Below, in pieces: positions 882 through 8,302 of a stretch of 23,169 nt of DNA (position 1 is its first letter; each line of letters begins with the position of its first letter). Location: positions 1 through 23,169 of the forward strand of contig JACTML010000174.1 in assembly GCA_014584635.1 (NCBI GenBank), written 5' to 3'. The notes under the pieces are model-generated. The model had not been told where the DNA came from, searched no databases, and saw only the letters and a program-made list of their open reading frames with translations. The translations under genes and the position numbers were made by a program. Origin of the DNA: Nitrosomonas eutropha (GTDB lineage: Bacteria > Pseudomonadota > Gammaproteobacteria > Burkholderiales > Nitrosomonadaceae).

Positions 882-2165
882 ATGTTTACTTCTTTAAGAC
901 TCACCAACTTCAAAGCCTGGGAAGATACCGGTACGATTGCGCTAAAACCGGTAACCGTACTACTGGGCACCAATTCCTCCGGAAAATCCTCACTCATTCA
1001 AAGTTTGTTGCTGCTGAAACAAACCGCGCAATCTCCGGATCGATCCACCCATCTGAACCTGGGCGGCGATGAAATCAGCGATTTATTCAACTTTGGCAGC
1101 TTTGACGAAGTGCTGAAGCGAGGCACACGTTCTCCTCGCGAATTCTCAATCCGCTTTGCTTTTGAAACACATGCATCCTCTCAGGTGAACGCAGGTCAAT
1201 TTTCCTGCAGCTATCGGCAAGCAGCAACAGGCGCCACCGTTATTCAGGAATTGGCACTGTCCACTGGGGAACACCGCTTCCGGGCAATACGCAAGGAAAA
1301 GGAAAACTATGCCATTTTTGCTGATGACAGACGGCCATGCGCCAAAGACAGCCATCTTGCGCCGGAACGCTCCATCGCGTTTCCAGCCGCAGCAATCGCC
1401 GCACTGGGCAGCAAAGGCACGTTTGTTGAAGATCTGAGCCTGGCACTTCGCCGCGAGCTGGAAAATATTTGCTACCTTGGCCCATTCCGGCGCAAACCGG
1501 AGCGCGATTATGTCTGGAATAAAACTGTACCTGGCCAGATTGAAAGCGATGGGCATCGTACAATCGATGTATTGTTAGCAGGCGCGCTGAGCAAAGATGA
1601 CAAGCACAACGAAGTTTTACAGGGTATTTCTCACTGGCTGGCGCGGATGAAAGTCGCGGAGAAACTCACCATCAAGCAACTGGGACGCTCTTCCCGCTAC
1701 GAAATTATGGTGCATAAAGACGGTGTTGCCGCCAACCTGCGCGATGTCGGTATTGGCATCCCCCTGATTCTGCCTGTGCTGGTCGCAGGTTATTTTGCCC
1801 CGCCCGGCAGCACTGTCATCCTGGAAGAACCCGAGATCCACCTGCACCCGCTGGCTCAGTCAGTGCTGGCAGAATTTTTTGTCACACTCAGCCGGTCACG
1901 TCATATCCAGTTTATTGTGGAAACCCATTCAGAACATCTGTTCCGCCGCATGCAAACGCTTATTGCACGCAAGGAAACATCGGCGGAGCAAATTGCCATG
2001 CTGTTTGTAGAACGAGTGGCAGACAACGCCATATTACGCAAACTGAAAGTGGATGAATTTGGCCGGGTCAGTAACTGGCCGCAATATTTCTTCGGCGATG
2101 CGCTGGGAGAAACCCGCGAACAGGCCCGGCTGATGCTCTCCCGCCAGCAGGAACGAACCAATTGA
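882..2165 (+). CDS. AAA/ABC-type ATPase with DUF3696 C terminus
   Basis: A 427-residue SMC/RecF-like P-loop ATPase of the AAA_15/AAA_21 kind. It begins with the typical LRLTNFKAWEDTG motif. Walker A is GTNSSGKSS (29-37, Lys35). A degenerate signature, NLRDVGIG, lies at 285-292. Walker B is TVILEEPEIHLHP (311-323) with Glu315/Glu316. An H-loop-like ETHSEHL is at 347-353. The tail RVSNWPQYFFGD (395-406) is the G/R-x-x-x-WP-x-x-FF pattern of DUF3696. There is no TOPRIM (OLD) domain, so any nuclease activity should come from a partner. That partner is probably the PIN protein whose TTG start overlaps the stop codon of this gene. Related ATPases act as sensors or effectors in several phage-defence systems (for example Septu PtuA and PARIS AriA), but this exact protein is not one I can name. 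No strong Shine-Dalgarno precedes the ATG at 882. The ATPase call is firm; the biological role is unknown. Confidence 0.85.
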   Translation: MFTSLRLTNFKAWEDTGTIALKPVTVLLGTNSSGKSSLIQSLLLLKQTAQSPDRSTHLNLGGDEISDLFNFGSFDEVLKRGTRSPREFSIRFAFETHASSQVNAGQFSCSYRQAATGATVIQELALSTGEHRFRAIRKEKENYAIFADDRRPCAKDSHLAPERSIAFPAAAIAALGSKGTFVEDLSLALRRELENICYLGPFRRKPERDYVWNKTVPGQIESDGHRTIDVLLAGALSKDDKHNEVLQGISHWLARMKVAEKLTIKQLGRSSRYEIMVHKDGVAANLRDVGIGIPLILPVLVAGYFAPPGSTVILEEPEIHLHPLAQSVLAEFFVTLSRSRHIQFIVETHSEHLFRRMQTLIARKETSAEQIAMLFVERVADNAILRKLKVDEFGRVSNWPQYFFGDALGETREQARLMLSRQQERTN

Positions 2166-2689
2166 AACAACGTTACGTGATTGATACCAACGTATTGATC
2201 CTTGCCAGCGCCGCCAGCCCGACCACACCCAAGGATATTGATGCCACACCGGAAGAACCGGCATTGCAGTTGCAGGTGTGGCAATGGCTGGTCGAATTTG
2301 AAAACAGTATGGCGAGGCTAGTGCTGGATTCAGCCGGTAAAATCAAGGAGGAATACGATCGTAAACTTGGCTTCAATGATTATGGAATCCAGGTCATCAT
2401 CCACAAATGGAGCACTCTGGCTGTAGATAACGTGGAAGTTCAATATGATGCTGATGGCCATGCTGTTTTGCAGCCACCGCTGGAATCAGTCGTACACGAT
2501 CGGGCAGATCGAAAAATGGTAGCCGCCGCCCTGGCAGCCATGCAACAGTATGGAGAAAGCACCATCGCTTTTGCTGCTGATACGGACTGGCACGGCTGGG
2601 AACAGGCACTGATACACGCCGGTCTGTCACTGGAGCCCATTATCGAAGAATGGTCGCGCGCGAAATATACGGAAAAAATGAAAAGATAA
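2162..2689 (+). CDS. PIN-domain ribonuclease-like protein
   Basis: A 175-residue protein that opens with YVIDTNVLILA, the first strand of a PIN nuclease fold. The usual acidic set can be placed as Asp8, Glu64 (in KIKEEYDRKL), Asp116 (in DRADRKMVAAAL) and Asp140/Asp142 (in FAADTDWHGW), so the metal-binding site appears intact. PIN proteins are Mg/Mn-dependent single-strand RNases, often VapC-type toxins cutting tRNA or rRNA. This one is longer than a typical VapC (about 130-140 residues) and has no small antitoxin gene beside it. It starts with TTG in a TTGA overlap with the ATPase stop, which implies translational coupling and a fixed stoichiometry. I infer a two-component ATPase-nuclease system in which the ATPase controls RNA cleavage. 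The fold assignment rests on motif reading only; substrate is unknown. Confidence 0.72.
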   Translation: MKQRYVIDTNVLILASAASPTTPKDIDATPEEPALQLQVWQWLVEFENSMARLVLDSAGKIKEEYDRKLGFNDYGIQVIIHKWSTLAVDNVEVQYDADGHAVLQPPLESVVHDRADRKMVAAALAAMQQYGESTIAFAADTDWHGWEQALIHAGLSLEPIIEEWSRAKYTEKMKR

Positions 2690-2718
2690 TTTGCAATACT
2701 TCAAAAGGAATCCCGATT

Positions 2719-2746
2719 TTGCTCAATTTAACTTACTTCGTATTAT
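2719..2746 (+). promoter_or_regulatory. Possible sigma-70 promoter of the RNA ligase gene
   Basis: TTGCTC (2719-2724) and TATTAT (2741-2746) are separated by 16 bases and lie 33 bases before the ligase start. The same gap carries an 8-base inverted repeat: TTGCAATA (2691-2698) and TATTGCAA (2744-2751). Its right arm overlaps the -10, so it could be an operator. The match is moderate and untested. Confidence 0.4.
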
Positions 2747-2779
2747 TGCAAAGCATTTGCACTCACTATATGAAACACC

Positions 2780-3460
2780 ATGTCTGAATTCTTTCGTTTC
2801 CCCAACACGCCTCATCTGCTCTGGCTGGGACAGGGTCTGCCCCGGGATGACAAGATTTTATCCAATCAGGAAATCGCTACGCTCCTGCAAGATGAAGTGC
2901 TGATCGAGGAAAAACTGGACGGCGCCAATCTGGGTATTTCCCTGGATAACCAAAATGAGCTGCGCGCACAAAACCGGGGCCAATACCTGCCACAGCCTTT
3001 CTCCGGCCAGTTTTCCCGTCTGAACAGCTGGCTGGGGCAGCATGGAGAAACCCTCAAGCAAACTCTGACACCAGAGCTTATTCTGTTTGGAGAATGGTGC
3101 GCAGCGAGACATTCGCTTGACTATAACCAGCTGCCCGACTGGTTTTTACTGTTTGATGTATATGACCGCAAAGCCGGCAAATTCTGGAGCGTCGAACGAC
3201 GCAATGCGCTGGCACAAGCGCTTAATTTTACTACCGTACCTCTGCTGAAACGCACCAGGATCACATGCGATCAGCTTGTTGAGTTGCTGGATGATACGCA
3301 AAGCCGCTATCGCAATGGCAAGATTGAAGGGATTGTCATCCGCAGCGATTCTCCACTCTGGTGTGAAAATCGGGCCAAGCTGGTCAACCGTGAATTCGTC
3401 CAGGCGATTGAAGATCATTGGCGCAGCCGGGCAATTGAATGGAATCTGGTCAAGCCTTGA
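2780..3460 (+). CDS. ATP-dependent RNA ligase (Rnl2-like nucleotidyltransferase)
   Basis: A 226-residue protein holding the full set of covalent nucleotidyltransferase motifs of the RNA_ligase (PF09414) family. Motif I is EEKLDGAN with the adenylated Lys45. An NRG element follows at 65-67. Motif III is LILFGEW (100-106, Glu105), IIIa is LLFDVYD (123-129), IV is EGIVIR (183-188), and V is RAKLV (198-202, Lys200). Such enzymes join RNA 3'-OH to 5'-phosphate ends via ligase-AMP and RNA-adenylate intermediates. It is a minimal adenylation-domain form: no C-terminal domain, kinase or phosphatase is fused. The start at 2780 has only a weak ribosome site. It lies 90 bases behind the PIN nuclease gene on the same strand, with a possible promoter between. 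That context suggests sealing of RNA breaks, perhaps those made by the neighbour; this is inference. A DNA substrate is less likely because the motif spacing and domain layout are RNA-ligase-like. Confidence 0.85.
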   Translation: MSEFFRFPNTPHLLWLGQGLPRDDKILSNQEIATLLQDEVLIEEKLDGANLGISLDNQNELRAQNRGQYLPQPFSGQFSRLNSWLGQHGETLKQTLTPELILFGEWCAARHSLDYNQLPDWFLLFDVYDRKAGKFWSVERRNALAQALNFTTVPLLKRTRITCDQLVELLDDTQSRYRNGKIEGIVIRSDSPLWCENRAKLVNREFVQAIEDHWRSRAIEWNLVKP

Positions 3461-7519: not shown

Positions 7520-7563
7520 GCTTTTGAGGGGAAATTTTAAGAAAAAACTGCTGATTAAGTAAG

Positions 7564-7743
7564 AGGATCCCCGCGAGTGCCGTCAGGTTACTATCTTGAA
7601 CCTCAGGTTCAAGAGTGGCCGCCCGCCGGCCACATCAGGCGCGCTCTGTAAACAAAGTGCGCACAACAGCGACCATCTGGCTGGCAGCCAGGTACAAAGA
7701 ATTGGTTCAAAGAATGTGAACCTTAACAAACACCGCAGGGAAT
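7564..7743 (-). ncRNA. ssrS: 6S RNA (regulator of sigma-70 RNA polymerase)
   Basis: Read on the - strand, the region has the layout of 6S RNA. The 5' piece CCCTGCGGTGTT (about 7730-7741) pairs with the 3' piece GGCACTCGCGGGG (about 7567-7580) as closing stem. Near the 3' side is the family-typical hairpin CTTGAACC-TGA-GGTTCAAG (7595-7613), as in the Escherichia coli CUUGAACC...GGUUCAAG. Two more self-complementary arms lie inside: 7615-7633 (GTGGCCG/CGGCCAC) and 7676-7690 (CTGGCTG/CAGCCAG). The length, about 180 bases, is normal. 6S RNA mimics an open promoter and holds RNA polymerase-sigma70 in stationary phase. A TATACT lies about 24 bases upstream of the proposed mature 5' end, suiting a processed precursor, but without a good -35. 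No protein frame of note crosses it. Ends are approximate. Confidence 0.85.
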
Positions 7744-7904
7744 AAACTCATTGGGACTGATGCAGTATAAACGAATTTATTCATGATTCGCCTATTCCGT
7801 AAAACATATCAGTCAACCTGAATTTCAATTATTTGATTTTACGCTTAAACGCCGGCATGTCAAAATCATGCTTTCCTGTCACGCCCGATAGCAATCGCAG
7901 AAAA

Positions 7905-7917
7905 TCCGGGAGCCGGA
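7905..7917 (-). terminator. Possible short terminator after the H-NS-like gene
   Basis: On the - strand, just after the stop of the H-NS-like gene, TCCGG-CTC-CCGGA forms a small 5-bp hairpin directly followed by TTTT. The stem is short, so this is a weak call. The remaining bases up to the 6S RNA (about 7744-7904) hold no gene and presumably carry the 6S promoter. Confidence 0.35.
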
Positions 7918-7926
7918 GAGCAATGA

Positions 7927-8229
7927 TTACTTTGCCCCAATCAGGCAATCTTCAATCTTGCCGCCCTTAGCCAGGTATTCTTTCAACCATTTCGGCCTGG
8001 CGCCACCACTCCACGTTTGGCTCGGGTCATTCGGGTTGGCATACCGTGGTATACGCTTTTTGCTGTTACCCGCCAGCCCCAGTTCACTCGCTGTAAATCC
8101 GTAAACCTGAATGGTTTTCCTGATTTCCCTGAGTGCATCCTTACGTTTGCTTTCGAGCAATTCCTTTTTTCTGGCTTGCAGTGCTGCAATCTGATCATCG
8201 ATACCCTGAATTTCTTCAAGACTACTCAT
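7927..8229 (-). CDS. H-NS family nucleoid-associated protein
   Basis: A 100-residue H-NS-like DNA-binding protein. Residues 1-45 are a charged coiled coil (EEIQGIDDQIAALQARKKELL onward) for dimerisation. The C-terminal domain carries the family sequence YANPNDPSQTWSGGARPKW (63-81) followed by LAKGGKIEDCLI. The loop TWSGGARP (72-79) corresponds to the AT-hook-like TWTGRGRxP minor-groove-binding motif of H-NS. Such proteins silence AT-rich, often foreign, DNA and shape the nucleoid. It is a single gene with a GGTGAG-like ribosome site before the ATG at 8229, and it shares a 571-base divergent region with the mrp operon. The loop is GGA rather than GRG in the middle, a common betaproteobacterial variant. 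Many such bacteria have several paralogues, so no gene symbol is given. Confidence 0.9.
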   Translation of the reverse strand: MSSLEEIQGIDDQIAALQARKKELLESKRKDALREIRKTIQVYGFTASELGLAGNSKKRIPRYANPNDPSQTWSGGARPKWLKEYLAKGGKIEDCLIGAK

Positions 8230-8302
8230 TATTTCTCACCATCCATATTTATAATTTTCCAAAGTATAACAATCATACCAATTTCACCTGATACTGCCTT
8301 CC

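Follow-up and report, generated by a model that had tools for sequence, protein, structure and literature searches.

What purpose could be served by encoding an RNA-cutting enzyme in one operon with an enzyme that joins RNA ends? In our view of the field, host-RNA-cutting defence nucleases are usually treated as one-way switches, and the question is raised by a locus of Nitrosomonas eutropha in the 23,169-nucleotide contig JACTML010000174.1 (assembly GCA_014584635.1; hereafter, the window is this whole stretch). Here, three adjacent genes encode an ATPase, a PIN-domain nuclease and a single-domain ATP-dependent RNA ligase (Table 1). A preliminary description, made from the sequence alone, had read this trio as a possible RNA cut-and-seal or defence module. 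Surveying samples of Pseudomonadota genomes together with plasmid, phage and viral collections, we find that the three genes are tightly coupled and conserved as a unit, a linkage that is well supported. With modest confidence, we favour the view that it forms one anti-phage module, in which a pair belonging to the candidate defence system HEC-03 is joined by a dedicated RNA ligase that would reseal the cuts of the PIN nuclease, under a control resembling that of PARIS.

Recurrence of the ATPase-PIN-ligase trio

The trio was found at 30 loci (L and G numbers denote loci and genomes, respectively), always in the order ATPase-PIN-ligase and on one strand. The gap between the ATPase and PIN genes is at most 8 bases in all 30 loci, and that between the PIN and ligase genes at most 14 bases in 28 of them, the exceptions being the window (90) and G045 (87); all of these gaps depend on the chosen start codons. 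The loci span 12 Nitrosomonas genomes, other Pseudomonadota, plasmids including one of Rhodococcus, and three viral contigs. The doubt raised in the preliminary description, namely that the ligase might never be found near the pair in other genomes, is thereby removed: both pair and trio recur as neighbours, the pair also on its own.

Among 101 related genomes, the ligase has a match in 14, i.e. 12 full trios in the same order, one broken remnant (G053) and one distant ligase in a genome of another family (G091), which adjoins an HD-kinase gene. Seven of the Nitrosomonas trios (G000, which is the window's genome, G001, G012, G021, G036, G038 and G045) occupy a common site between queH and a DUF202 gene, and strong purifying selection is seen among them. 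In the stretches around the trios of G002, G003, G025, G035 and G044, neither a queH nor a DUF202 gene was found. A search for empty sites returned a DUF202 match in 19 of 61 genomes, and the 11 distant ones inspected (L111-L121) have no queH within up to 1.5 kb on each side; there is thus no empty site for a comparison that could prove insertion. The ligase remnant of G053 (L034, 7776-8300) is broken, with no ATPase or PIN gene found within 16 kb around it, which suggests that the module was lost in one Nitrosomonas.

The wider samples gave a similar association. Nine ligase matches in the class sample (369 genomes) comprise four trios, three ligases with an HD-kinase, one truncated gene (G107) and one other (G299). 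The phylum sample (398 Pseudomonadota genomes) contains 19, of which all 11 with E <1e-90 lie in trios, and the other eight (E >1e-65) are not beside the pair (six with an HD-kinase, one fragment and one with neither). On plasmids, the ligase is matched in 27 of 72,556 records, and the regions of ten of these were inspected. Nine plasmid records carry ATPase, PIN and ligase genes (six from Aeromonas, the rest from Azotobacter, Tistrella and Rhodococcus), three of the six Aeromonas trios being called from adjacent match coordinates, and some of the trio-bearing plasmids are conjugative. On an Aeromonas caviae plasmid (L066, 4403-6498), the ligase gene of the trio is split by an insertion sequence. 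Viral contigs provided three trios (L124, L126 and L127) among the best 14 of 44 ligase loci. That of L127, a satellite contig, had no match among 20,395 E. coli records at blastn sensitivity, and its PIN none in 50,697 phage records. The window ligase itself has 144 matches in phage records, all below 60% identity and, among the 25 listed, at 23-30%.

The ATPase and its PIN partner

The window ATPase, described beforehand as a P-loop protein of DUF3696 type, indeed matches Pfam AAA_15, AAA_21 and DUF3696. Three groups of residues are invariant in all 19 aligned rows: G29, N31, S32, G34, K35 and S36; E315, P317, E318 and H320-P323; and E347 and H349-H352. Of the PADLOC models, HEC-03B is matched at 2.3e-86 over nearly the full length of the protein and AriA far more poorly (2.9e-25). 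Two further trio ATPases match HEC-03B at 4.5e-110 and 1.2e-136, and the E values of four divergent trio PINs against HEC-03A range from 9.3e-24 to 1.4e-29. Judged by these profile matches, the window pair is most probably a divergent lineage of HEC-03.

The PIN protein has a predicted VapC fold. VapC enzymes cleave initiator tRNA or the sarcin-ricin loop, as stated in part of PMC5408214.

Two ligase subfamilies and the exchange of the ligase

Relationships among the ligases were analysed with two trees, of 27 and 41 rows, and with an identity matrix of 16 loci. In the 41-row tree, a branch (96/100) splits the 30 trio ligases, together with L123 and L125, from the HD-kinase ligases and their viral kin. 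An HD-kinase (HD + AAA_33; profile built from L035, L054 and L065) lies beside eight distant genome ligases (L035, L054, L056, L057 and L192-L195) and on three of the four examined plasmids with a distant ligase (L064, L065 and L068; not L067); none was found beside two weak genome ligase matches (L058 and L196). The window ligase has no such neighbour and lies between the PIN and DUF202 genes. Since the HD-kinase accompanies the sister ligases only, the obvious reading is that end healing is required by the sisters but not by the trio ligases. The sisters belong to the same broad family, but their arrangement is that of HD-kinase + RNA ligase repair pairs such as HD-Pnk of Runella, with an HD-kinase rather than ATPase-PIN as partner.

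Within the trios, ATPase and PIN have diverged together (r 0.94 in the identity matrix), whereas the correlation of the ligase with these two is only 0.51 and 0.53. The trio L029 illustrates this: its ATPase is 66% identical to that of the window and 35% to that of L030, the corresponding values for its ligase being 59% and 78%. Types I, II and III had been defined on the basis of the identity matrix, ahead of any tree. The ATPase tree unites the 11 type I rows (the window, L029 and nine others) at 100/100, next to the ligase-less L101; this group is rejected by the ligase data (approximately unbiased (AU) test, p 0.0004), as is the placement of L029 among the type I ligases of Nitrosomonas (p 0.0007), both p values being descriptive because the types had been named first. 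A long-branch warning applies to L062 and L063 in the 27-row ligase tree, and the conflict between the trees rests on other rows. The ligase is thus a part that has been swapped between divergent ATPase-PIN pairs. Because it passes between pairs with about one third ATPase identity, a close fit to one partner is unlikely and the ligase more likely acts on a common product, in which case conflicting trees are to be expected.

Pairs without the ligase occur as well: two of the six genomes with a PIN in the class sample (G170 and G340) and four of 15 in the phylum sample (G073, G479, G533 and G644; the other 11 have it). The ligase is therefore an accessory of some pairs, and its subfamily is almost exclusive to the ATPase-PIN pair. 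A member standing alone is L125 (3998-4663 of contig IMGVR_UViG_3300028029_000002), which falls inside the trio clade of the 41-row tree and is carried by a phage-like contig of 80.6 kb with portal, DnaB-like helicase, primase and ribonucleotide reductase genes. No ATPase was found on this contig, which may be incomplete, in a search for which three trio records served as positive controls, and no PIN in one without a positive control. Provided that the ligase reverses cutting by the PIN, this lone copy is a possible phage counter-defence.

A further gene accompanies some of these loci. A gene start resembling NPLQRTLIEK follows the ligase in L123 (645-1514), L055 (5956-6399) and L029 (after 2715, seemingly frame-broken). 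A gene with a similar start (7538-8296) follows the PIN gene in L103, the one inspected of three Acinetobacter soli plasmids that have the PIN and no ligase match; here the gene matches HNH endonucleases, L103 being the only locus in which this match was tested. From the shared gene starts, an HNH-like protein is a possible fourth component of HEC-03.

Defence context of the relatives

The defence context of trio relatives is well supported. The trio of L051 lies between an HmaB-like DUF1156 methylase and a PLD/SNF2 helicase, L093 adjoins HmaB and Orf5/HEC-06, L094 follows PglX (E 0), L096 precedes BrxHI (E 0) and the ligase-less L076 is near DrmD. The trio of L053 (1922-8249) has as neighbours a DUF4143 ATPase and a TOTE primase-helicase, another conflict-system protein. 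The satellite trio of L127 is situated between an integrase gene and Psu, i.e. at the site where, in a passage of the paper describing PARIS, P4 satellites are said to carry anti-phage systems (PMC9122126). L126 has an integrase like that of L127, and in L124 a phage portal gene lies 2.7 kb from the trio. The early proposal of a defence-type ATPase-nuclease pair is thus supported by the match to HEC-03 and by relatives in BREX-like or Hma-like loci and at a satellite int-psu site.

A proposed cut-and-seal mechanism

From these observations we infer the following course of events. The OLD/AriA-like ATPase would bind the PIN protein and hold the nuclease inactive, as in PARIS, until it senses a phage component and releases it. 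Once freed, the PIN nuclease would arrest translation by cutting a structured RNA that the cell cannot do without; by analogy with VapC enzymes, a tRNA or an rRNA loop is the most plausible target. If the cut ends are 3'-OH and 5'-phosphate, the lone ligase could reseal them with ATP, needing neither kinase nor phosphatase; it would thereby repair leaky cutting in healthy cells, define a threshold and permit recovery after a failed infection. Cut-and-seal would be the most economical mechanism for these putative activities. A precedent for suitable ends is AriB, a tRNase for which a 3'-OH end is shown and a 5'-phosphate end stated in parts of PMC12409363; a nuclease leaving such ends would explain why the trio ligases do without a kinase.

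As anticipated in the preliminary description, the window ligase is minimal. Its 226 amino acids make up a catalytic domain only, with the nucleotidyltransferase motifs and the predicted fold, a fold that is common to all compared ligase families (Rnl2/Rnl5-like and others). Full-length nick-sealing ligases of the Rnl2/Rnl5-like kind carry one further domain, N- or C-terminal, which is absent here. VIA-align ranks the nick-sealing ligases first, nearer than Rnl1. None of the PADLOC models is matched by the ligase at E 0.1.

Several points weigh against this mechanism. It stands or falls on the chemistry of the cut ends (3'-OH/5'-phosphate versus 5'-OH), and the products of VapC are stated, in a passage of PMC6459853, to bear 5'-OH ends, which the ligase could seal only with the help of a kinase. 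The only sequence matches of the ligase in the PDB are archaeal Rnl3-type enzymes (2vug at 0.0011 and 5d1o at 0.0073), Foldseek also places 2vug at the top, and the Rnl3 model TIGR01209 is matched, albeit below its cut-off (36.6 bits versus 136.9). By these matches, a remote kinship with Rnl3 stands, and Rnl3 is described in PMC12153264 as circularising RNA. End chemistry and ligase type are weak points of the model. In addition, the pair can do without the ligase: 12 of the 18 distinct PIN genomes of both samples have it and six do not, and it has no match in three of 12 PIN-bearing plasmid records (all Acinetobacter soli). The window PIN matches HEC-03A weakly (1.7e-7, 29.5 bits, a score not compared with PADLOC's own cut-off), and the window trio lies outside any defence island, among queH, DUF202, catalase, DUF3422 and EVE genes. 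Finally, the flanks tested in the relatives were chosen for their defence-like look rather than measured against a background rate.

Alternative explanations

A defence module could also employ its ligase differently, either to aid the attack or to process another RNA, for instance by joining or circularising fragments against mending. That some pairs dispense with the ligase and others have exchanged it would suit such a role, as would its nearest relative by sequence and Foldseek, a circularising archaeal enzyme that co-occurs with the PIN-family protein HARP according to part of PMC12153264. The first rank of nick-sealing ligases in VIA-align speaks against this explanation, and the trio-clade ligase of the phage-like contig L125, where no pair was found, fits repair better. 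We regard it as unlikely.

Less credible still is an addiction or stability module of mobile elements, with the ATPase or the ligase as antitoxin to the PIN and no specific anti-phage role. Carriage by conjugative plasmids and the resemblance of the PIN to VapC would agree with it, but no small VapB-like gene was found between ATPase and PIN or between PIN and ligase in any of the 30 trio loci, some relatives lie inside defence operons and one at a satellite int-psu site, and the ATPase is related to the phage-sensing AriA.

The constrained queH-DUF202 site of seven genomes, together with a base composition of the trio that resembles the rest of the window, could instead indicate a chromosomal operon for RNA maturation or repair with a housekeeping role in Nitrosomonas. 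Presence of the trio in only 12 of 101 nearby genomes, its occurrence in five Nitrosomonas with neither queH nor DUF202 in the stretch examined around it, and its carriage by plasmids and a satellite make this quite improbable. Although HEC-03 pairs exist without the ligase, the idea that the latter is an unrelated passenger is highly implausible and was rejected on the conserved order, gaps and overlaps and the near-exclusivity to the pair across many families, including the Rhodococcus plasmid.

Relation to known systems

Both window proteins match the models of HEC-03, a PADLOC candidate embedded in Hma loci that consists of HEC-03A (PIN) and HEC-03B (ATPase). The relatives L051 and L093 lie in Hma-like loci and the window does not; we take this embedding as the way in which HEC-03 was found rather than as a requirement for its members. 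The trio differs from HEC-03 by the added ligase. An AriA-related ATPase with a nuclease partner, and the BREX and P4-satellite settings of some relatives, are reminiscent of PARIS, but PARIS has the Toprim nuclease AriB and no ligase is added there; membership in PARIS proper was rejected on the PIN fold. The same pairing as in the trio, OLD-ABC ATPases with PIN endoRNases, is described from BREX neighbourhoods in a 2026 survey, where the modules are proposed to be backup suicidal effectors and the word ligase is absent from the main text (PMC12839542).

The preliminary description had drawn an analogy to PrrC and to T4 Rnl1 and Pnkp. In PrrC and RloC, an ATPase controls an anticodon nuclease, the cuts of which are sealed by T4 Pnkp and Rnl1. 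The likeness lies in an RNA cutter under ATPase control and an ATP-dependent ligase that seals; however, PrrC and RloC are HEPN nucleases, their repair enzymes are phage-borne and include a necessary kinase, whereas the trio ligase is encoded in the nuclease's own operon, without a kinase, and is placed by VIA-align away from Rnl1. The analogy therefore fits loosely, and PrrC-like membership was rejected because the nuclease is PIN and not HEPN. T4 repair is also mentioned in part of PMC12409363.

Co-occurrence of Rnl3 with HARP, a protein-only RNase P of the PIN superfamily, has been reported, with a proposed role in RNA processing (PMC12153264, in part). As in the trio, the gene of a PIN-family RNase is linked to that of an RNA ligase, and among solved structures Rnl3 comes nearest to the window ligase in sequence; in contrast, the relevant portion of that paper describes no ATPase and a typically bidirectional gene orientation. 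The window PIN and ligase fall short of the models of these families, and membership was not assigned. VapBC shares the VapC fold of the PIN, but in all 30 trio loci the PIN has an ATPase and a ligase as neighbours instead of a small VapB.

In the titles and abstract openings of the literature searched, which did not cover Burroughs and Aravind 2016 and Krishnan et al. 2020, the trio is undescribed. The earlier statement that no named system has this exact trio holds within that literature, but the ATPase-PIN pair already has a name, HEC-03. HEC-03 is mentioned in PMC13356809. DefensePredictor validated other PIN systems, and the word 'ligase' is absent from the main text of that paper (PMC13092281). 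Some Hma-embedded candidates, including HEC-06, were active in assays, in an account whose excerpt does not mention RNA ligase (PMC12988326), and the excerpt of PMC9252829 contains nothing on HEC.

Gene arrangement in the window

The window genome is 1.68 Mb in 230 contigs and 80% complete. All three genes of the trio are intact and run in one direction; the arrangement given in the preliminary description, i.e. co-oriented genes with a 4-base TTGA overlap and then a 90-base spacer, was confirmed at 882-3460, the TTG start of the PIN gene sitting inside this overlap.

Table 1. Features of the trio locus in the window
Feature	Position	Strand	Basis or remark
OLD/AriA-like ABC-type ATPase, C-terminal DUF3696 (HEC-03B-like)	882..2165	+	Pfam, PADLOC, invariant motifs
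PIN-domain nuclease (HEC-03A-like)	2162..2689	+	TTG start, 4-base overlap with ATPase stop
PIN-ligase spacer, 90 bases	2690..2779	.	no promoter-like site found
Single-domain ATP-dependent RNA ligase, nucleotidyltransferase domain only	2780..3460	+	

Upstream, queH lies on the opposite strand. The ligase gene is followed by the DUF202 gene, a gene that we take from its sequence to encode a catalase, DUF3422 and an EVE gene. No tRNA genes were found in the window.

Implications

The trio may be a suicide-type defence operon with its own reset enzyme, in which a PIN nuclease released by the ATPase cuts RNA, the ligase reseals it, abortive infection is reversible and the threshold is set by cutting versus sealing; the ligase would be a portable component, handed from one divergent pair to another, and would have been captured by at least one phage, plausibly for counter-defence. 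We put this fuller picture forward tentatively, as a possibility somewhat short of probable. Of the two ligase subfamilies, one is mostly found with an HD-kinase and the other with a PIN, a contrast from which the end chemistry of a so far uncharacterised nuclease can be predicted. Should a nuclease truly be encoded together with the enzyme that undoes its cut, the reversibility of abortive infection would become directly testable in E. coli with just three genes.

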